From positions 5,977,501 through 6,041,500 of the forward strand of contig NZ_JBEJGX010000003.1 in the NCBI RefSeq assembly GCF_040253635.1: a stretch of DNA of 64,000 bases. Reading direction: 5' to 3'. The DNA comes from Streptomyces sp. Edi2. Its GTDB lineage: Bacteria > Actinomycetota > Actinomycetes > Streptomycetales > Streptomycetaceae. Positions 35,801 to 44,881 of this stretch are shown in pieces. The stretch's first letter is position 1. The number at the start of each line of letters is the position of its first letter. The notes under the pieces were generated by a model. That model was not told where the DNA came from, searched no databases, and saw nothing but the letters and a program-made list of their open reading frames with translations. Position numbers and translations under genes: made by a program.

Positions 35801-35927
35801 GCTCGGTCGGTGCGGCCGGTCCGGGCGCGGTGCCTGCGGCGTCGACGGCCAGTGCCTCAGGGGTGCCCGCCTCCCGTGGAGGCGCCGCACCCTGCTGCTC
35901 GGCTGTCTCTTCTTGATCTCGTATCAC
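32832..35927 (-). CDS. large membrane protein: TM domain, kinase-like domain and UPF0104/LPG-synthase-like flippase domain
   Basis: 1031 residues, GTG start with poor SD. Residues 1-160 are an acidic/Pro-rich tail. Residues ~165-395 contain about six membrane helices. Residues ~400-620 resemble a degenerate kinase (LLAYAAIAAGAHAPKLIATS, AVMLVYEHIGGRTF, MDRSGTIVLTELRGGEIA). A charged coiled-coil Lys/Arg/Glu region (~625-715) follows. Residues ~730-1031 are the lysylphosphatidylglycerol-synthase TM/UPF0104 domain (NFVKLVAPAAIGGVALNTRFLQRAG; TPGGVGAVEGALIGAL). A lipid-linked sugar or lipid flippase role is inferred. Confidence 0.85.
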   Translation of the reverse strand: MIRDQEETAEQQGAAPPREAGTPEALAVDAAGTAPGPAAPTERPKRQQAAPQGTHQRRPGTASATEKASTIEKAERPGASERPEEPKEPEPTERDEEKSEEERNGKEPEQGQDGPAARERREEPEAGTPLGKPQPAPPTAPDRPHAAPDKPHTGSHRSDLSSDEYGEFHVDRVSGDEPLLPARVHRPADLLRLLLGIAGIALVLGLATFAHGTTQGLARDIGTGAKAAPPLLINLAGLTSSVAVLIVPVAFAVERLIKRDGLRIADGVLAAVLAHGVSLAADLWVADAAPVSIRDALTQPLENGSLSAPVHSYLAPVIAYMTAVGMSRRPRWRVAMWCVLLLDAFAVLVGRYTTPFAIITTVLIGWTVAYGTLYAVGSPNVRPTGQNLLAGLRRVGFHPVSALRAEDAGTTDHWDHPDRGRRYLVTLEDGPPIDVTVVDREQQAHGFFYRVWRRLSLRGINQRRSLQSLRQALEQEALLAYAAIAAGAHAPKLIATSELGPDAVMLVYEHIGGRTFDSLADEEITDALMHSAWRQVEALQSRRIAHRRLVGDALLMDRSGTIVLTELRGGEIAAGDLVLRMDIAQLLATCGLRVGAERAVAAAVEVLGPDAVADSLPLLQPIALSRTTRATLRQLARERAKREREAVLEASQAAKEARESREAEGPKDRKTMRAERHAEKTAEKRALDDASEEAREEDLLAQIRRQVLLIRPTAVIEPAKLERLSPRILITWIAGAFAVYLLLSQLTNFNLGDMVNKARWEWVLVAMLFSGLTYIAAAMSLLGFVTERVSFVRTVIAQIAGNFVKLVAPAAIGGVALNTRFLQRAGVRPGLAVASVGASQLFGLGSHVLLLLVFGYLTGTQEQTPTISPSRTVIAGLLTVAVLVLIVTAVPALRKFVSTRVRSLFAGVVPRMLDILQRPGKLVTGIGGMLLLTAANVMCLDASIRAFGGGDTISYASIAVAFLAGNALGSAAPTPGGVGAVEGALIGALTVSGLAADTSFPAVLLFRLMVFWLPVLPGWVAFNYLTHKGEI

Positions 35928-36083
35928 CAGTCACCGTCCGGAAGATGGTGGCACGGCCGACCGGTGGAGGGGGGCATCAGGGTGCATTTCGGGGGTGCGG
36001 GAAGCGGAACGCCCTCCCATCACCGGGGCAGTCGCGCCTTGCCGCCGACCTCTTGAAGGCGCCGGACCGTGTGTCCGATCCCA

Positions 36084-36106
36084 TTGTCGGTGCCGTACGG
36101 CAGGAT
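36084..36106 (+). promoter_or_regulatory. PafBC-type (RecA-NDp) promoter of the ATL gene
   Basis: TTGTCGGTG (36084-36092), 8 nt, CAGGAT (36101-36106), then 7 nt to the ATG at 36114. This matches the mycobacterial RecA-independent DNA-damage motif TTGTCRGTG-N8-TAnnnT with one deviation (C for T in the -10). Confidence 0.55.
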
Positions 36107-36113
36107 GGACCGA

Positions 36114-36620
36114 ATGAGTGGGACCGGAGATGAGGCGGCGGGTGAATTCCCCGCAAACCCGGAAGATCCGGAGTACCCGGAGTACGCGGAACGGGTCCTG
36201 GCGGTTGCCGAGCTGATCCCGGCGGGCCGGGTGATGACGTACGGCGATGTCGCGGAGTGGCTCAAGGAGGAGGAGCAGCCCGAAGGGCTGGTGGCGGAGG
36301 GCGGTGGCGGGCGAGGGACGGGCGGGCCGCGGCAGGTGGGGCGGGTGATGGCGCTCTACGGCGCCGCCGTGCCCTGGTGGCGGGTGGTGCGCGCGGACGG
36401 CCGGCTGCTGCCCGGCAGTGAACTGCGCGCCCTGGGGCACTACCGCGACGAGGGCACCCCCTTGCGGACGGCCCCGCATGCCGCCGAGGACCACATACCG
36501 CGGCTCGACATGCGGCGGGCCCGCTGGGACGGGCGCCAGGACGGAGACGCGGACGGCGGCGTGGGTGGTGGCGCGAACGGTGGCGCGGGCGGTGCTGCGG
36601 ACGGCGGCGCGGCTCCCTAG
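36114..36620 (+). CDS. alkyltransferase-like (ATL) DNA-binding protein
   Basis: 168 residues. The start is ATG 36114, placed at the predicted +1; ATG 36105 is the alternative. MGMT-type DNA-binding fold: YAERVLAVAELIPAGRVMTYGDVAEWL with the helix-turn-helix, then RQVGRVMALYG and PWWRVVRADGRL. The alkyl-acceptor Cys of MGMT (PCHRV) is Trp, so this is an ATL protein. ATLs bind O6-alkylguanine and flag it for nucleotide excision repair. A Gly/Ala/Asp-rich tail (~142-168) is extra. It lies upstream of adnA. Confidence 0.9.
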   Translation: MSGTGDEAAGEFPANPEDPEYPEYAERVLAVAELIPAGRVMTYGDVAEWLKEEEQPEGLVAEGGGGRGTGGPRQVGRVMALYGAAVPWWRVVRADGRLLPGSELRALGHYRDEGTPLRTAPHAAEDHIPRLDMRRARWDGRQDGDADGGVGGGANGGAGGAADGGAAP

Positions 36621-36813
36621 CGCCGACGGCACCGCGCGACGGGCCGTGGCAGGCTCAGCGGCCCGGACGCGGCCTGGCGTAGCGTCGGGCACTGCCGTCA
36701 CGACGACGGCTCCGCCGCGCACCGCGCAGCCGGACCACCCCTGACCGGCGGCCCGCGGCGCCGCGCACCACGCACGCACCACGACCAGCACCTCCTCAGG
36801 ACCGGCGATCCAC

Positions 36814-39800
36814 GTGAGTTCCTCCTTCTCGGCCTCCCCGGCCATCCCGCCGGCGCCGCCCCACCGGGTGGCGCCGCGGGGTGCCGCAGGCACGTACCGG
36901 CTGGTGCGCACCCCGCCGGGGCGGGTGGCTCCTCCTGCGTTGGACGCAGCCCAGCGCGCCGTGGTTGACCACCGGCAGGGGCCGCTGCTGGTGCTGGCCG
37001 GACCGGGCACCGGAAAGACCACGACCCTGGTGGAGTCGGTGGCCCGCCGGGTGCGGGCCGGCGGCGACCCCGAGCGGATCCTCGTCCTGACCTTCAGCCG
37101 CAAGGCCGCCGTCGAACTCCGCGACCGGCTCGCGGCCCGGCTGGCCGACCTGGAGAACCCGGTCGGCGGCGCGCCCGCCACAGGGGGCGGACCACGGGCG
37201 GGCATCCCGCAGGCGACGACCTTCCACTCCTTCTGCTACGCCCTGGTCCGCGCCCATCAGGACGCCGACCTCTTCGCCGACCCGGTGCGGCTGCTGTCCG
37301 GACCCGAGCAGGATCTCGTCGTCCGCGAGCTCCTGGCCGGACAGGCGGAACTGGCCGGCGCCGGCCGTGCCCCGGTGAACTGGCCGGACGAGCTGCGGGC
37401 CTGCCTGACCACCCGCGGCTTCGCCGACGAGGTCCGTGCGGTGCTCGCCCGCAGCCGCGAACTGGGCCTGGGCCCGGACGCCCTCGGCGCCTTCGCCCGG
37501 CGCACCGGCCGCCCCGACTGGAGCGCCGCGGCCGGCTTCCTCGCCGAATACCTCGACGTCCTGGACGCCCAGGGCGTACTGGACTACGCCGAACTGGTGC
37601 ACCGCGCGGTGCTGCTCGCCGAACGCACCGACGTCGCGGCGCACCTGGCCGCCTCCTATGACGCGGTCTACGTCGACGAGTACCAGGACACCGACGTCGC
37701 CCAGGTACGGCTGCTGCGCGCGCTCGCCGGCAACCACGGAGCGACGGGGGCGCCGGGCTCCCCGGGACGCACCCTCGTCGCCTTCGGCGACCCCGACCAG
37801 TCGATCTACGCCTTCCGGGGCGCCGACGTCAACGGCATCCTCGACTTCCCCGAGACCTTCCGCCGCGGGGACGGCACCCCCGCCCCGGTGGCCGTGCTCG
37901 GCACCTCCCGGCGCTCCGGCGCCGCGCTGCTCGCGGCCACCCGGCTGCTGACCCGCAGGATGCCGCTCACCCGCCTCCCGGCCCGGACGGTACGCGCCCA
38001 CCGCGAGCCGGTGCCCGTACGGGACGGCGGCCGCGTCGAGGTGTACACGTACCCGACGCCCGGCAGCGAGCTCGACAACATCGCCGACATCCTGCGCCGC
38101 GCCCATCTGGAAGACGGCGTGCCCTGGCGCGAGATGGCCGTCCTCGTACGCGCCGGGGGGCGCTCACTCCCCGCGGTACGCCGTGCGCTCACCTCGGCCG
38201 GGGTACCCCTCGACATCGACGGCGACGATCTGCCGCTGCGCCACGAACCCGCGGTCGCCCCCCTGCTGACGGCACTACGGGCGGCGGCGCGGGCCGCGCT
38301 GGGGCAGGGTCCGGCGGGGGCCGGGGCAGGCGGGACCGGCTCGGACGGGGCCGGCTCGGACGGAGCCGGCCCGGACGGTGCTGGCCTGGACGGTGCCGGT
38401 CCCGGCGGTCCTGGCGAGGCGGGAGCTGCCGCGGGCGCCGTCGGTGAGGCCACTTCCGGAGACGTCCCCTCCGGTACGGCCGCCCCCGATGACGCCTCGT
38501 TCGCCGAGGTCACCCCCGATGACGACCCGTTCGCCGAGGTCGATCCTGATGGCGCCCTGTTCGCCGAGGCCGATCCTGATGACCTCCCGTTCGCCGAGGC
38601 CGCCCCCGATCCGGCCTCCGACCCGGCCCCCGCCGGAGTCGCCGCCCGCCCCGTACTCGATGCCGAAACCGCCCTCGACCTGCTGACCTCCCCCCTCGGC
38701 GGCATGGACTCCGCCGATCTGCGACGGCTGGGCCGGGCCCTGCGCGAGGAGGAACGGGCCGCCGGACAGACACCTCCGCGGCCCTCCGACGAACTGATCG
38801 CCCAGGCGCTCGCCGAACCGCAGCGCCTGGTGGCGCACGACCCCGCCTACGCCCGCGGCGCCCAGCGGCTCGGGCTGCTGCTGCGCAAGGCCCGCGAACT
38901 GCTGGCCGGCGGCGGCACCGCGGAACAGGCGCTGTGGGAGCTGTGGGACGGCACCCCCTGGCCGCAGCGCCTGGAGCGGGCCGCCCACCGCGGCGGTGCC
39001 GCCGGGCGCAACGCCGACCGCGACCTGGACGCCGTCGTCGCCCTCTTCGAGACCGCCGCCCGCGCCGAGGAGCGCACCGGCGGCCGCGGCGCGCTCAACT
39101 TCCTGGAAGAACTCGACGCCCAGGACATCGCCGCCGACACCCTCACCCGCCGCGCGGTGCGCCCCGACGCCGTACGGCTGATGACCGCACACCGCGCCAA
39201 GGGCCTGGAATGGCGGCTCGTCGTCGTCGCCGGAGTCCAGGAAGGCCTCTGGCCCGACCTGCGCCGCCGCGGATCGCTCCTGGAAGCCGACCGGATCGGC
39301 CGCGACGGCCTGGCCGAACCGCTCACCCCGGGCGCGCTGCTCGCCGAGGAACGCCGGCTGTTCTACGTCGCCGCCACCCGGGCCCGCGAACGCCTGGTCG
39401 TCACCGCGGTGAAGGCCGCTGCCGACGACGGCGACCAGCCCTCCCGTTTCCTGACCGAGCTGGGCGTCACCCCCCAGGACGTCACCGGCCGCCCGCGCCG
39501 CCCCCTCTCGGTGGCCGCGCTCGTCGCCGAGCTGCGCGCCACCACCGTCGACCCGGATGCCACCCCCGCGCTGCGCGAGGCCGCCGCCCAGCGGCTCGCG
39601 AAACTGGCCGCCCTGCACGACGACGATCACCACCCCCTGGTACCGGCTGCCCACCCGGACAACTGGTGGGGCCTGTTCGAACCCACCCACAGCACCGTCC
39701 CGCTGCGCGACCGCGACCGTCCCGTGGTCCTCTCCGGCAGCGCCCTCGACCAGCTCGCCAACACCTGCTCCCTCCAGTGGTTCCTGGGCCGCGAGGTCAA

Positions 39801-40578
39801 GGCGGACACCCCCGCCACCGCCGCCCAGGGCTTCGGCAACGTGGTGCATGTGCTCGCCGACGAGGTCGCCTCCGGCCGCACCCCCGCCGATCTGTCCGTC
39901 CTGATGGAGCGCCTGGACTCCGTATGGGACTCCCTCGCCTTCGACGCCCCCTGGAAGTCACGCCAGGAGAAGGAGTCCGCCCGCGCCGCCCTGGAGCGCT
40001 TCCTGCGCTGGCACGTCATGGAACGCGAGACCCGTGGCCGGGACACCGCCGCCACCGAGCACGGCTTCGACCTCACCCTCCGGGCCGGCGCCTACGAGGT
40101 CCGCATCCGCGGCAGCATGGACCACGTCTCCCGGGACGCGCAGGGCCGGGCGTATGTCGTCGACTTCAAGACCGGCAAACAGAAGCCGACCGGCCCCGAG
40201 GTCGCCCGCCACCCCCAGCTCGCCGTCTACCAGCTCGCGGTGCGCGAGGGCGCGGTCGACGACGCCTTCGACGGCCGCACGCCGCAGCTGGGCGGCGCGG
40301 AACTGGTGCATCTGCGGCTGGGCGCGGCCCAGAAGGAAGGCGGCGACGCCCTGCCCGCCGTACAGGCACAGCAGCCGCTGGAGGCGGCGGCCCCCTCGGC
40401 GGACGAAGGGGGCGCCCCGGCGGAGGCCGGGGGCGAGTGGGTCGGCGAACTGCTCGCCACCGCGGCGGGCCGCGTACTGGAAGAGCGGTTCACCCCGACC
40501 ACCGGCACCCACTGCACCCACTGCACCTTCCGGGCATCATGCAGCGCACAGCCGGAGGGACGGCACGTCGTCGAGTGA
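36814..40578 (+). CDS. adnA: AdnA-like UvrD-family helicase/nuclease subunit
   Basis: 1254 residues, GTG start. SF1A motifs: AGPGTGKTTT, FSRKAAVELRDR, DEYQDTD, FGDPDQSIYAFRGAD, MTAHRAKGLEWRLVVVAG and YVAATRARERLVV. The C-terminal RecB-like nuclease: GNVVHVLADE, VVDFKTGKQKP (PD-(D/E)xK) and a Cys set NTCSLQW ... HCTHCTFRASC, i.e. C...CxxCx5C as in AddB/Cas4 [4Fe-4S] nucleases. A low-complexity insert (~490-610) has four 10-residue repeats. With AdnB it would resect DNA double-strand breaks. adnA/adnB assignment is by order and similarity to mycobacterial AdnAB. Confidence 0.9.
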   Translation: MSSSFSASPAIPPAPPHRVAPRGAAGTYRLVRTPPGRVAPPALDAAQRAVVDHRQGPLLVLAGPGTGKTTTLVESVARRVRAGGDPERILVLTFSRKAAVELRDRLAARLADLENPVGGAPATGGGPRAGIPQATTFHSFCYALVRAHQDADLFADPVRLLSGPEQDLVVRELLAGQAELAGAGRAPVNWPDELRACLTTRGFADEVRAVLARSRELGLGPDALGAFARRTGRPDWSAAAGFLAEYLDVLDAQGVLDYAELVHRAVLLAERTDVAAHLAASYDAVYVDEYQDTDVAQVRLLRALAGNHGATGAPGSPGRTLVAFGDPDQSIYAFRGADVNGILDFPETFRRGDGTPAPVAVLGTSRRSGAALLAATRLLTRRMPLTRLPARTVRAHREPVPVRDGGRVEVYTYPTPGSELDNIADILRRAHLEDGVPWREMAVLVRAGGRSLPAVRRALTSAGVPLDIDGDDLPLRHEPAVAPLLTALRAAARAALGQGPAGAGAGGTGSDGAGSDGAGPDGAGLDGAGPGGPGEAGAAAGAVGEATSGDVPSGTAAPDDASFAEVTPDDDPFAEVDPDGALFAEADPDDLPFAEAAPDPASDPAPAGVAARPVLDAETALDLLTSPLGGMDSADLRRLGRALREEERAAGQTPPRPSDELIAQALAEPQRLVAHDPAYARGAQRLGLLLRKARELLAGGGTAEQALWELWDGTPWPQRLERAAHRGGAAGRNADRDLDAVVALFETAARAEERTGGRGALNFLEELDAQDIAADTLTRRAVRPDAVRLMTAHRAKGLEWRLVVVAGVQEGLWPDLRRRGSLLEADRIGRDGLAEPLTPGALLAEERRLFYVAATRARERLVVTAVKAAADDGDQPSRFLTELGVTPQDVTGRPRRPLSVAALVAELRATTVDPDATPALREAAAQRLAKLAALHDDDHHPLVPAAHPDNWWGLFEPTHSTVPLRDRDRPVVLSGSALDQLANTCSLQWFLGREVKADTPATAAQGFGNVVHVLADEVASGRTPADLSVLMERLDSVWDSLAFDAPWKSRQEKESARAALERFLRWHVMERETRGRDTAATEHGFDLTLRAGAYEVRIRGSMDHVSRDAQGRAYVVDFKTGKQKPTGPEVARHPQLAVYQLAVREGAVDDAFDGRTPQLGGAELVHLRLGAAQKEGGDALPAVQAQQPLEAAAPSADEGGAPAEAGGEWVGELLATAAGRVLEERFTPTTGTHCTHCTFRASCSAQPEGRHVVE
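38491..38610 (+). repeat. four 30-bp tandem repeats inside adnA
   Basis: Units 38491-38520, 38521-38550, 38551-38580 and 38581-38610 encode DDASFAEVTP, DDDPFAEVDP, DGALFAEADP and DDLPFAEAAP. They follow a 15-bp repeat tract encoding GSDGA/GPDGA (38336-38410). Confidence 0.92.
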
Positions 40579-40820
40579 GCGGGGCCGCGGCGCTTGGCTT
40601 GTTTCCCACGTTGTCGGCTTCCCCGCCGTGAGGGTTTCTCTTGTTTCGCCTGCGGCGGGCCGGTCCGCTGCGCTTTGCCTCGGACCGTTTTTGGCTTTGG
40701 CCGCCGTGGGAGTTCGCCGCCGTGGCGCCTGCGGCGGGCGTGGGTGGTCGGGTGCGGTGCCGCTCCTCCGGACTCCGTCCTGCGGCGCGGCCCCTCCCGT
40801 GAGTGGGTGGAAGAACCTGC

Positions 40821-40856
40821 GTGGGGGTGCACGTGATCGTTTACGTGCACCCCCAC
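40821..40856 (+). terminator. hairpin downstream of adnA, possible terminator
   Basis: Perfect 14-bp stem (40821-40834 with 40843-40856), loop GATCGTTT. It is 243 nt after the adnA stop; no U-tract follows. Confidence 0.5.
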
Positions 40857-40886
40857 CGGCCTTCACCTCCCTCCACCACGGGAGGG

Positions 40887-41006
40887 GACGGGCCGGAGGG
40901 GCAGGGTGTCCGGGCTTTGCTTCCGAAGATCAAAATAAAGAGCAAAGGCGGAGCGCAGCGAAGCGTAAAGCGAAGCAGTCCGGACACCCTGCCCCTCCGG
41001 CCCGTC
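40887..41006. repeat. perfect 27-bp inverted repeat with 66-nt loop
   Basis: Arms 40887-40913 and 40980-41006 are exactly complementary. The loop contains CAAAATAAAG and GCGAAGCGTAAAGCGAAG. It forms the centre of the adnA-adnB intergenic structure. Confidence 0.92.
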
Positions 41007-41194
41007 ACCGCACCCACAGCCCCGCGCAGCGGCCCCGCCCGCCGCCAGGCGCAACGGCGGCGAACTCCCACGGCGGGACAGTCGAAAGCGGGGTGAGGCA
41101 AAGCGCAGCGGACGGGCCCGCCGCCAGGCGCAACAAAGAGAAACCCCCACGGCGGGACAGCCGAAAACGTGGGAAGCAAGCCAAGCGCAGCGGA

Positions 41195-41217
41195 TTGTCA
41201 GTGGCGACCGCTACGGT
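41195..41217 (+). promoter_or_regulatory. PafBC-type (RecA-NDp) promoter of adnB, leaderless
   Basis: TTGTCAGTG (41195-41203), exactly 8 nt, TACGGT (41212-41217), then 7 nt to the GTG at 41225. This is a perfect match to TTGTCRGTG-N8-TAnnnT and predicts +1 at the start codon. Confidence 0.7.
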
Positions 41218-41224
41218 TTTTGTT

Positions 41225-44200
41225 GTGTCAGCTCGCCTCACCGACCCCGAGCAGCTCAAGCAGCTGCTCGGCATCCCGTTCACGCCGGAGCAGACGGAGT
41301 GCATCACCGCCCCGCCCGCCCCGCAGGTCATCGTGGCCGGAGCCGGTTCGGGCAAGACCACGGTGATGGCCGCGCGCGTGGTGTGGCTGGTCGGCACCGG
41401 GCAGGTCGCCCCCGAGCAGGTCCTCGGGCTGACGTTCACGAACAAGGCGGCCGGCGAGCTCGCCGAACGCGTCAGGGCCGCGCTCCTCGCCGCCGGAGTC
41501 ACCGACCCGGACGCGCTCCCGGCCGATGCCGGCGCCACCGCCACCGGCCGGTCCGACGGGCAGCCCACGGGAGAGCCGCGGATCTCCACCTACCACGCCT
41601 TCGCCGGCCAGCTCCTCAAGGACCACGGCCTGCGCATCGGCCTGGAGCCCAGCGCCCGGCTCCTCGCCGACGCCACCCGCTTCCAGCTCGCCGCCCGTAC
41701 GCTCCGTGCCGCCCCCGGCCCCTACCCCGCCCTCACCACCTCCCTGCCCTCCCTCGTGGAGGACCTGCTCGCCCTGGACGCCGAGCTCGCTGAACACCTC
41801 GTGGACCCCGCCGCGCTCCGCACGTACGACACCGAGCTCCTGGCCGCCCTCGACGGCGTGAAACTCACCAACGCCGACCTGCGCAAGGCCCCCGAGACCG
41901 CCCGCGGCCGCCTGGAACTGCTCGACCTCGTCACCGCCTACCGGGCCGAGAAGCGCCGCCGCGACCTCCTCGACTTCGGCGACCAGATCGCCCACTGCGC
42001 GACCCTCGCCACCACCCGCCCCGAAGTCGGCCGGATCCTGCGCGACGAATTCCGCGTCGTCCTGCTCGACGAGTACCAGGACACCTCCGTTGCCCAACGG
42101 CTGCTGCTGTCCGGCCTCTTCGGTGCCGGCACCGACACCGGCACCGACACCGGCACCGGCACCCCCACCGGGCATGCGGTCACCGCCGTCGGCGACCCCT
42201 GCCAGGCCATCTACGGCTGGCGCGGCGCCTCCGTGGCCAACCTCGACGACTTCCCCGTCCACTTCCCCTTCCAGGACGGCACCCCCGCCCGCCGGTACGC
42301 CCTCAGCGAGAACCGCCGCAGCGGCGGCCGCCTCCTCGACCTCGCCAACGGCCTCGCCGCGCCCCTGCGGCGGATGCACGAGGGCGTCGAAGCACTGCGC
42401 CCCGCCCCCGGCGCCGAGCGCGACGGCACCGTCCGCTGCGCCCTGCTGCCCACCCACGCCGAAGAGCTCACCTGGCTCGCCGACTCCCTCGCCCACCTCG
42501 TCCGCACCGGCACCCCGCCCGGCGAGATCGCCGTGCTGTGCCGCACCGCCGGTGATTTCGCCCGCATCCAGGGCGAACTGGTCGCCCGGGACCTCCCCGT
42601 GGAGGTCGTCGGCCTCTCCGGACTGCTGCACCTGCCCGAGATCGCCGACCTCGTCGCCGTATGCGAAGTGCTCCAGGACCCCACGGCCAACGCCGCCCTG
42701 GTCCGCCTGCTGATCGGCCCGCGCTGGCGGATCGGCCCCCGCGACCTGGCGCTCCTGGGCCGCCGCGCCCGCACCCTCGTCCACCACACCGCCCCGTCCG
42801 ACGACCCGGGGCAGCGCCTCGCCGAGGCCGTCGAAGGCGTCGACCCGGCCGAGACCATCTCGCTCGCCGACGCCCTCGACACCTTCCTGGAGGCCGAAGG
42901 ACCCGGCGACGGGCTTCCCTTCTCTCCCGAAGCCCGGGTGCGCTTCGCCTACCTGGCCGCCGAACTGCGCGACCTGCGCCGCTCCCTCGGCGACCCCCTC
43001 ATGGACGTGCTCCACCGGGTGCTGGCCGCCACCGGCCTGGAAGTCGAGCTGTCCGCGTCCCCGCACGCCCTCGCCGCCCGCCGCCGCGAAACCCTCGGTA
43101 CCTTCCTCGACATCGCGGCCGGATTCGCGGCCAAACAAGGCGGCGAATCCCTCGACGGCGACGCCACCCTGCTCGCCTTCCTCGGCTTCCTGCGCACCGC
43201 CGTCCAGCACGAAAAGGGCCTGGACAGCTCCCTTCCCGGCGGCGACAACACCATCAAGGTCCTCACCGCCCACAAGTCCAAGGGCCTGGAATGGGACGTG
43301 GTCGCCGTACCCGGCCTGGTCGCCAAGCAGTTCCCCAGCGAACAGGCCCGTGAGTCCTGGACCAGCCGGCCCAAGGTCCTCCCGCACGCCCTGCGCGGCG
43401 ACGCCGCCACCCTCCCCGACGTCGGGGAATGGGCCGCCCGCGGCCTGAAATCCTTCAAGGAGGCGATGAAGCAGCACCAGGAGACCGAGGAACTGCGCCT
43501 CGGCTATGTCACCTTCACCCGTCCCCGCTCCCTGCTGCTCGGCTCCGGCCACTGGTGGGGCCCCCAGCAGAAGCGACCGCGCGGCCCCTCCGCCTTCCTG
43601 GAGGCGCTGCGCGAGCACTGCGAGGCGGGACACGGCGAGATCGAGCACTGGGCCGGGGCCCCCGAGGACGGCGAGGAGAACCCCGCCCTCGCCGAGGCCG
43701 CCACCGAACAGGCCTGGCCGCTGCCCCTGGACCCCACCGCCACGGCCCGCCGCCGCGCCGCCGCGGCCACCGTCCGCGCCCATCTGGAACGCCGTACGGG
43801 GGAGGGGTCCGCCGCCTTTGCCGCCGCCCCGCCGTCCCTGTCCGCCCACGACCCCGACTGGCCGCCGCCACCGGCGGATGACGGCTTGGACGCCGATCCG
43901 TTCGACATGCCGGAGGCCGCCCCCTTCGACGAGGCCGACCCCTTTGACGAGGCCGACCCGTTCGACGACGACGCTCCGCTCACCGCCCAGCCGGGCGCAG
44001 CCCCCGCCGCCGATGCCGCGCCGCACGACACCTCCGAAGCCGGCCCGGCCCCGCTCCGTGCCCACATCGGTGCCCAGCGCTCCACCGAGCCCGACCTCAC
44101 GGCAGGTACGGACGCCGGCATCGCCCACGCCGGCGAGACCGCGCCGCACACCCTCCTCCCCGAGGAGCGGCGCACCGTCGGGTCCTGGGACCGCGATCTG

Positions 44201-44881
44201 GACGCCCTCGCCGCCGAGCTGCGCCGCTCCCGCGCCACCGTCCGCGACGTCCCGCTGCCCTCCGCGCTCAGCGCCACCCAGCTGCTCCGCCTCGCCGCCG
44301 ACCCCGACGGCTTCGCCCGCGAACTGGCCCGCCCCATGCCGCGCCCGCCGCAGCGCGGAGCACGCCGGGGCACCCGCTTCCACGCCTGGGTCGAGTCCCG
44401 CTTCGAAGAGCTGACGCTGCCCCTGCTCGGCCCCGACGAGCTGCCCGGCGCCGAAGCGGGCGAGGAAGCCGCCATCGTCGACGAACACGACCTCGAGGCC
44501 CTCAAGGAAGCCTTCGCCCGCACCCCCTACGCCCACCGCACCCCCTTCCGCGTCGAAGCCCCCTTCCAGCTCACCCTCGCGGGGCGGGTCATCCGCGGCC
44601 GGATCGACGCCGTCTACAAAGAGCCCGGCCCCGACGGCGACCGCTTCGAGATCGTCGACTGGAAAACCGGCCGGGCCCACAGCGCCGACCCCCTCCAGCT
44701 GGCCGTCTACCGCCTCGCCTGGGCCGAGCGGTACGGCCTGGAGCCGTCCGCCGTCGGCGCCGCCTTCCTCTACGTCCGCAGCGGCGAGGTGGTCCGGCCC
44801 GCCCGGCTGCCCGGCCGCGCCGGACTCGAACGCATCCTGCTCGGCGAGACCGCCGACCGGCGTCCCCCACAAGGCCGATAG
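41225..44881 (+). CDS. adnB: AdnB-like UvrD-family helicase/nuclease subunit
   Basis: 1218 residues from the GTG at 41225, at the predicted transcription start. SF1A motifs: VAGAGSGKTTVMAARVVWLV, TFTNKAAGELAERV, DEYQDTS, VGDPCQAIYGWRGAS, TAHKSKGLEWDVVAVPGL and YVTFTRPRSLLL. The C-terminal nuclease has GTRFHAWVESRF, DAVYKEPGPDGDRFEIVDWKTGR and QLAVYRLAWAE, a complete PD-(D/E)xK core with no Cys cluster. Linkers are low complexity: GTDTGTDTGTGTP at ~305 and an acidic DPFDEADPFDEADPF stretch at ~890-915. With AdnA it forms an ATP-driven end-resection nuclease. Confidence 0.92.
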   Translation: MSARLTDPEQLKQLLGIPFTPEQTECITAPPAPQVIVAGAGSGKTTVMAARVVWLVGTGQVAPEQVLGLTFTNKAAGELAERVRAALLAAGVTDPDALPADAGATATGRSDGQPTGEPRISTYHAFAGQLLKDHGLRIGLEPSARLLADATRFQLAARTLRAAPGPYPALTTSLPSLVEDLLALDAELAEHLVDPAALRTYDTELLAALDGVKLTNADLRKAPETARGRLELLDLVTAYRAEKRRRDLLDFGDQIAHCATLATTRPEVGRILRDEFRVVLLDEYQDTSVAQRLLLSGLFGAGTDTGTDTGTGTPTGHAVTAVGDPCQAIYGWRGASVANLDDFPVHFPFQDGTPARRYALSENRRSGGRLLDLANGLAAPLRRMHEGVEALRPAPGAERDGTVRCALLPTHAEELTWLADSLAHLVRTGTPPGEIAVLCRTAGDFARIQGELVARDLPVEVVGLSGLLHLPEIADLVAVCEVLQDPTANAALVRLLIGPRWRIGPRDLALLGRRARTLVHHTAPSDDPGQRLAEAVEGVDPAETISLADALDTFLEAEGPGDGLPFSPEARVRFAYLAAELRDLRRSLGDPLMDVLHRVLAATGLEVELSASPHALAARRRETLGTFLDIAAGFAAKQGGESLDGDATLLAFLGFLRTAVQHEKGLDSSLPGGDNTIKVLTAHKSKGLEWDVVAVPGLVAKQFPSEQARESWTSRPKVLPHALRGDAATLPDVGEWAARGLKSFKEAMKQHQETEELRLGYVTFTRPRSLLLGSGHWWGPQQKRPRGPSAFLEALREHCEAGHGEIEHWAGAPEDGEENPALAEAATEQAWPLPLDPTATARRRAAAATVRAHLERRTGEGSAAFAAAPPSLSAHDPDWPPPPADDGLDADPFDMPEAAPFDEADPFDEADPFDDDAPLTAQPGAAPAADAAPHDTSEAGPAPLRAHIGAQRSTEPDLTAGTDAGIAHAGETAPHTLLPEERRTVGSWDRDLDALAAELRRSRATVRDVPLPSALSATQLLRLAADPDGFARELARPMPRPPQRGARRGTRFHAWVESRFEELTLPLLGPDELPGAEAGEEAAIVDEHDLEALKEAFARTPYAHRTPFRVEAPFQLTLAGRVIRGRIDAVYKEPGPDGDRFEIVDWKTGRAHSADPLQLAVYRLAWAERYGLEPSAVGAAFLYVRSGEVVRPARLPGRAGLERILLGETADRRPPQGR

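Follow-up and report, generated by a model that had tools for sequence, protein, structure and literature searches.

Damage-inducible promoters that resemble the one described here are best known from mycobacteria, where the published consensus of the RecA-NDp promoters is tTGTCRgtg, 8 nt and TannnT (PMC5656591). These promoters use a -26 element and have no -35 (PMC11804915, PMC10936776); the helix-turn-helix of PafB is described as engaging the -26 motif and PafC as contacting domain 4 of SigA, with single-stranded DNA as the activating ligand (PMC11804915). The mycobacterial PafBC regulon is reported to include both adnA and adnB (PMC8922275, PMC8223512). In Streptomyces, the UV-inducible recA promoter of S. 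rimosus is given as TTGTCAGTGGCN6TAGggT with variants, and the regulon predicted in S. coelicolor and S. avermitilis holds 67 S. coelicolor genes, including a DNA-repair group (PMC2375139). The passage that describes this regulon ties no regulator to the motif and mentions neither adnB nor leaderless starts. A 2022 study of the SOS response in S. venezuelae stated that an initial search suggested the PafBC motif to be unconserved, and it left a RecA/LexA-independent response open (PMC9380542). The second gene of a repair operon can also have its own leaderless promoter, as for recX of Mycobacterium tuberculosis, whose species-variable promoter lies inside recA and is constitutive (PMC3062782).

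Here, we analyzed a stretch of 64 kb from Streptomyces sp. Edi2 (the window), in which a promoter motif of the mycobacterial type, with a -26 element and no conserved -35, directly precedes adnB, and the genes behind its other copies in the genome are of the same kind as those of the mycobacterial regulon. Unlike the sampled actinobacteria outside Streptomycetaceae, in which the box is found at adnA and has a degenerate -10, Edi2 has a perfect box at adnB. The arrangement resembles recX in that the second gene has its own putative leaderless promoter, but the adnB promoter appears from its sequence to belong to a damage-inducible class. The motif class, the Streptomyces regulon and mycobacterial adnAB as PafBC targets are already in print (PMC2375139, PMC8223512, PMC8922275, PMC8151990), and a literature search that covered largely papers available without subscription turned up neither a box at adnB nor a difference between adnA and adnB.

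The promoter motif at the start of adnB

The gene at 41225-44881 (+ strand) encodes a protein of 1218 aa with UvrD helicase and PDDEXK_1 nuclease domains. Among solved structures it matches best to chain B of AdnAB in 6ppu, 6ppr, 7sjr and 6ppj (E values from 2.4e-191 to 6.6e-167). Upstream, the gene at 36814-40578 (+ strand) encodes 1254 aa with the same two domains and matches best to chain A of the AdnAB structures. The names adnB and adnA, for subunits B and A of the helicase-nuclease, thus hold, as the earlier note had called them. The -26 box TTGTCAGTG, a PafB-type recognition element, lies at 41195-41203 (+ strand) and is followed by an 8-nt spacer (41204-41211), the -10 hexamer TACGGT (41212-41217, + strand), a further 7 nt (41218-41224) and the GTG start codon of adnB (41225-41227). 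The earlier note had described this as a perfect mycobacterial motif 7 nt ahead of the GTG, and we confirmed both the motif and the consensus it was compared with, which matches the published one (PMC5656591). When both strands were scanned, the adnB site was the sole perfect match to TTGTCRGTG-N8-TANNNT in the window. With up to two mismatches, five matches were found against 1.14 expected, and enrichment at this looser level is modest.

The box is conserved ahead of adnB throughout the family. A named set of 78 loci was used, from which five loci from outside Streptomycetaceae and four unsuitable ones (L094, L097 and L101, which begin at or near the gene, and L102, which has a run of N) were removed, leaving 69; one of the named loci (L065) was placed by hand. 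The form NTGTC-N12-TANNNT, which contains the core TGTC, was found in 68 of the 69, with the full consensus in 19. The single miss (L109) has a three-mismatch form with TAGCGT 7 nt before GTG. Among 34 further Streptomycetaceae loci, 31 of them from other genera and some overlapping the named set (identical rows in the tree), the box was found in 32 (31 by script and L239 by eye). Positions that played no part in the selection are near-fixed in the 68 aligned loci, box position 7 being G in 100%, position 9 in 99% and one spacer position in 96%; variation falls mainly on positions 1 and 8, which may explain why searches elsewhere with the mycobacterial motif were disappointing. As a negative control, permuted boxes in the strict form gave no match at adnB.

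The position of the box also supports a leaderless adnB transcript, as had been proposed. The distance from the -10 to the start codon is 7 nt in 57 of the 68 named loci with a box, 8 nt in six and 6 nt in four, with one unscored, so that the codon stands 6-8 nt past the -10 in all 67 scored loci, and none of 67 loci has GGAG, GAGG or AGGA within 15 nt of the start. From the 7-nt distance, transcription is predicted to start at the GTG or one base earlier (41224-41225, + strand). No conserved -35 and no conserved column was seen in the 40 nt above the box in the 68 aligned loci, where information content is mostly below 0.4 bit and reaches 0.5 at one A. A search of 35900-41400 for a sigma-70-type promoter pair found none, and a terminator scan found only short stems, which overlap the box on the + strand.

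For LexA, no CGAACNNNNGTTCG with up to two mismatches was found in 40070-44481, a search that degenerate LexA boxes, such as some in S. venezuelae, would escape. The LexA box scan gave 50 matches against 39.6 expected, with none near adnB. Since LexA is reported to target several recA, dnaE2 and ruvC genes of Streptomyces as well, presence of the motif is compatible with LexA control. Taken together, sequence, spacing, conservation and the genomic company described below support the assignment of the adnB site to the RecA-NDp/PafBC type of promoter.

Copies of the motif in the genome and the candidate regulator

A motif scan of the genome had been suggested by the earlier note, and it yielded 41 perfect copies in 9.81 Mb (6 contigs), before recA, ruvC, uvrB, ung and rarA among others, while the reversed pattern was absent from both strands. 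One sequence, present on two contigs, was counted twice among the 41, leaving 40 distinct copies. A coding-like open reading frame starts 5-8 nt past the -10 at 22 of these 40; offsets 6 and 7 stand out with 9 and 11 starts, and every other offset from -10 to 59 has at most two. For 30 of the 40 loci, a Pfam search with the candidate gene identified uracil-DNA glycosylase (UDG), MgsA/RarA, RuvC, UvrB, O6-methylguanine transferase (MGMT), Pol III alpha, an AlkZ-like glycosylase, MazG, DnaX and RecA, with adnB as the eleventh. The remaining loci have genes without an evident repair link, such as an amidase, an ABC transporter and an aldolase, or no clear gene. At recA, the copy reads TTGTCAGTGGC-AGGCGT-TAGCGT, in agreement with the UV-inducible recA promoter of S. 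rimosus as PMC2375139 quotes it.

Perfect copies are not restricted to Edi2. In a sample of 296 genomes of the class, at least one was found in 220, and all 31 Streptomyces genomes of the sample, this one included, have 8-52 each against 0 or 1 for the reversed control. These copies in every sampled Streptomyces genome, together with their place right before start codons, suggest that a RecA/LexA-independent damage response very probably exists in Streptomyces, and they supply a ready list of targets for studying it. Two genomes of one genus (G153 and G135, genus g32, family f17) have 119 and 63 perfect copies, several-fold above their kin; the box is perhaps carried there by a repeated element. 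At another locus (L041, 458-2086, - strand), a gene that matches the Wadjet component JetA2 (PADLOC, E 9e-288) has a perfect box 49 nt upstream, a hint that a plasmid-defence system may be under damage-linked control. The same motif also occurs near the end of a chromosome contig (L001).

As to the regulator, two adjacent WYL genes at locus L127 match PafB and PafC of M. smegmatis, the chains of 7p5x (E 1.2e-57 and 2.7e-55), and the PafB helix FxRMFERDK is common to the L127 protein and the M. smegmatis protein. PafB was detected in 291 and PafC in 288 of the 296 genomes of the class, counts in which some matches may be other WYL proteins, and both are kept in 31 of 31 sampled Streptomyces. 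The three genomes without PafB and PafC have 0, 1 and 0 motif copies, a comparison of little power; because PafBC is present in nearly all genomes of the class, its presence or absence says little about a link with the motif. Judged by analogy with mycobacteria, PafBC is the likely activator of the adnB promoter.

Boxes at adnA and at its upstream neighbour

The earlier note missed that in many other actinobacteria the predicted box is at adnA and not at adnB. The core box was found at adnB in none of 33 loci from other actinobacteria (28 from other families and five from the named set). Three loose matches at adnB in this group were rejected, being adnA boxes assigned to the wrong gene. One outgroup locus (L172) has a box with one mismatch before adnB, with an ATG 7 nt on. 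At adnA, NTGTC (usually NTGTCGG) with a degenerate -10 such as TGGGAT was found in 21 of 32 loci, 6-9 nt ahead of an in-frame adnA start; the eleven other orders of these four bases scored 0.2 on average and never more than 1. These are weaker forms, seen only with a loosened -10, and TAnnnT was found in 0 of the 32.

Within Streptomycetaceae, a leaderless box directly before adnA was found in none of 56 named loci and in none of two other groups (0/3 and 0/26). Two short contigs without adnA (L042 and L045) were set aside from this count, the match there being adnB itself. Several genera of the family keep a box-like element farther upstream of adnA (L246, for example, with one mismatch), which indicates that loss of the adnA box is incomplete in the family. 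Among the loci L234-L267, several other Streptomycetaceae show a conserved GGATCGTAGGCT before adnA, accompanied at the same short spacing by a TTGAC/TGTC-like box; this may be what is left of the ancestral adnA promoter. In the AdnB tree, the Streptomycetaceae group in a single branch (support 100), and the adjoining rows L134 and L135 carry the box at adnA. This was a quick tree with several long branches; every Streptomycetaceae row in it was labelled adnB, and the adnA label of four outgroup rows was assigned by eye. The simplest reading of these sequences is that the box was gained once at adnB in Streptomycetaceae and was lost or decayed at adnA.

The gene upstream of adnA (36114-36620, + strand) encodes an alkyltransferase-like protein with an O6-alkylguanine transferase DNA-binding domain (PF01035, E 5e-12). 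It has Trp at the position expected for the acceptor Cys. A variant box, TTGTCGGTG-N8-CAGGAT (36084-36106, + strand), stands 7 nt before the ATG at 36114. The CAnnnT form was found before this gene in 56 of the 64 Streptomyces loci that hold it, in 11 of 22 from other Streptomycetaceae and in 0 of 11 elsewhere, and permuted boxes gave at most two matches in the Streptomyces loci. When the -10 was relaxed to YANNNT, a pattern chosen post hoc, the window showed no matches beyond the boxes of adnB and of the alkyltransferase-like gene (0.01 expected). With a -10 that starts with C, the variant makes up a second promoter subtype.

Control of adnB and supply of the two subunits

We propose that adnB is transcribed from a RecA-NDp promoter of the PafBC type, with a start at or beside the GTG that gives a leaderless mRNA, that the box has shifted from adnA to adnB, and that the switch of adnA is weaker or indirect; we put the probability of this whole proposal at roughly three in four (0.77). 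By extension from the mycobacterial work, single-stranded DNA would activate PafBC, PafB would read the -26 box and PafC would bring sigma domain 4 past the absent -35, turning adnB on without LexA cleavage. The ancestral box would have stood at adnA and driven both genes; in Streptomycetaceae a box would then have arisen at adnB, with that of adnA lost or decayed and the alkyltransferase-like gene upstream bearing a weaker leaderless variant. As a result, adnB would have its own damage switch and adnA would probably keep a weaker or indirect one.

A leaderless damage promoter of the same shape could instead answer to another activator in Streptomyces, such as a different WYL protein, ClgR or an extracytoplasmic sigma factor. 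There are 14 WYL-domain matches in the genome, ClgR is reported to recognise the P1 region of mycobacterial recA (PMC5656591), and our literature search met no PafBC data from Streptomyces. However, the motif is identical to the PafBC consensus, the genes that follow it (recA, ruvC, uvrB and adnB) match the mycobacterial PafBC regulon (PMC8223512), and PafB and PafC are both retained throughout the sampled Streptomyces, so we consider a different activator unlikely. A plain housekeeping promoter, with constitutive leaderless expression of adnB through the -10 and induction coming from elsewhere (LexA or read-through from adnA), seems more improbable still. Such a basal promoter would be needed if adnAB is essential in Streptomyces, as reported in the title of Zhang 2014 (cited in PMC5869714), and the gap between adnA and adnB is below 150 nt in many relatives, compatible with read-through. 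Against this, the -26 box matches the -10 in conservation, yet a leaderless sigma-A promoter could do without it, and the search around adnB, within its limit for degenerate sites, met no LexA-like site. Chance resemblance in a GC-rich intergenic region can be given almost no weight: two-mismatch matches in the window are only about four times the chance rate, but the counts of 41 against 0 for the reversed pattern in the genome, the absence of permuted boxes and the fixed place of the box in 68 of 69 loci with unconserved sequence upstream refute it.

The PafBC-type promoter at adnB leaves the behaviour of adnA to be considered. It had been claimed that adnB, but not necessarily adnA, is induced by damage, and this agrees in part with the sequences, in that no leaderless box was found directly before adnA in Streptomyces. 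That adnA is left out is doubtful, since the variant box precedes the alkyltransferase-like gene, from which read-through could serve adnA. We take the adjacent S. coelicolor genes sco5183 and sco5184 to be adnA and adnB. Labelled ATP-dependent DNA helicases, these genes rose together on TopA depletion (log2 1.70 and 1.54), alongside recA, recX, dnaE2 and lexA, and the authors credit LexA (PMC6637917). This joint rise adds to the doubt about adnA and speaks against a strongly unequal supply of AdnA and AdnB; that the two are made in unequal amounts under stress is a guess.

In Edi2, the sequence between the two genes is taken up by a palindromic element of about 610 nt (40579-41194, no strand assigned), whose outer arms (40585-40642 and 41136-41193) are 58 nt long, 90% complementary and located at its ends. 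As RNA it folds far better than 20 shuffled sequences (z -25.7), and the hairpin may stop adnA transcripts. At least 51 matches to one arm were found in the genome, with 40 of 125 candidates scored, and they make up at least 15 paired copies in which the minus arm is always on the left; further copies occur in the loci L193-L203. These copies may represent a family of mobile or terminator-like repeats. In the near relative S. inhibens, adnA and adnB are 133 nt apart, with no such arm before the box. Since the palindrome ends exactly against the -26 box, the promoter has outlasted replacement of all the sequence upstream of it.

A broader reading, tentative and in our view rather doubtful, is that Streptomycetaceae moved the damage switch of an obligate two-subunit repair complex from its first gene to its second. 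AdnA would then be near-steady or indirectly induced, leaderless and LexA-free production of AdnB would gate the number of AdnAB complexes after damage, and in Edi2 the palindrome would further cut adnB off from adnA transcription. The predicted shift is of interest as a regulatory switch changing gene within a two-subunit operon, in a family with adnAB reported to be essential, and it makes the stoichiometry of AdnA and AdnB under damage directly testable. Among the named Streptomyces loci, the gap between adnA and adnB ranges from tens of bases up to 2005. Many of these gaps are 800-1200 nt long and have long open frames and no palindrome; an additional gene may lie there between adnA and adnB.
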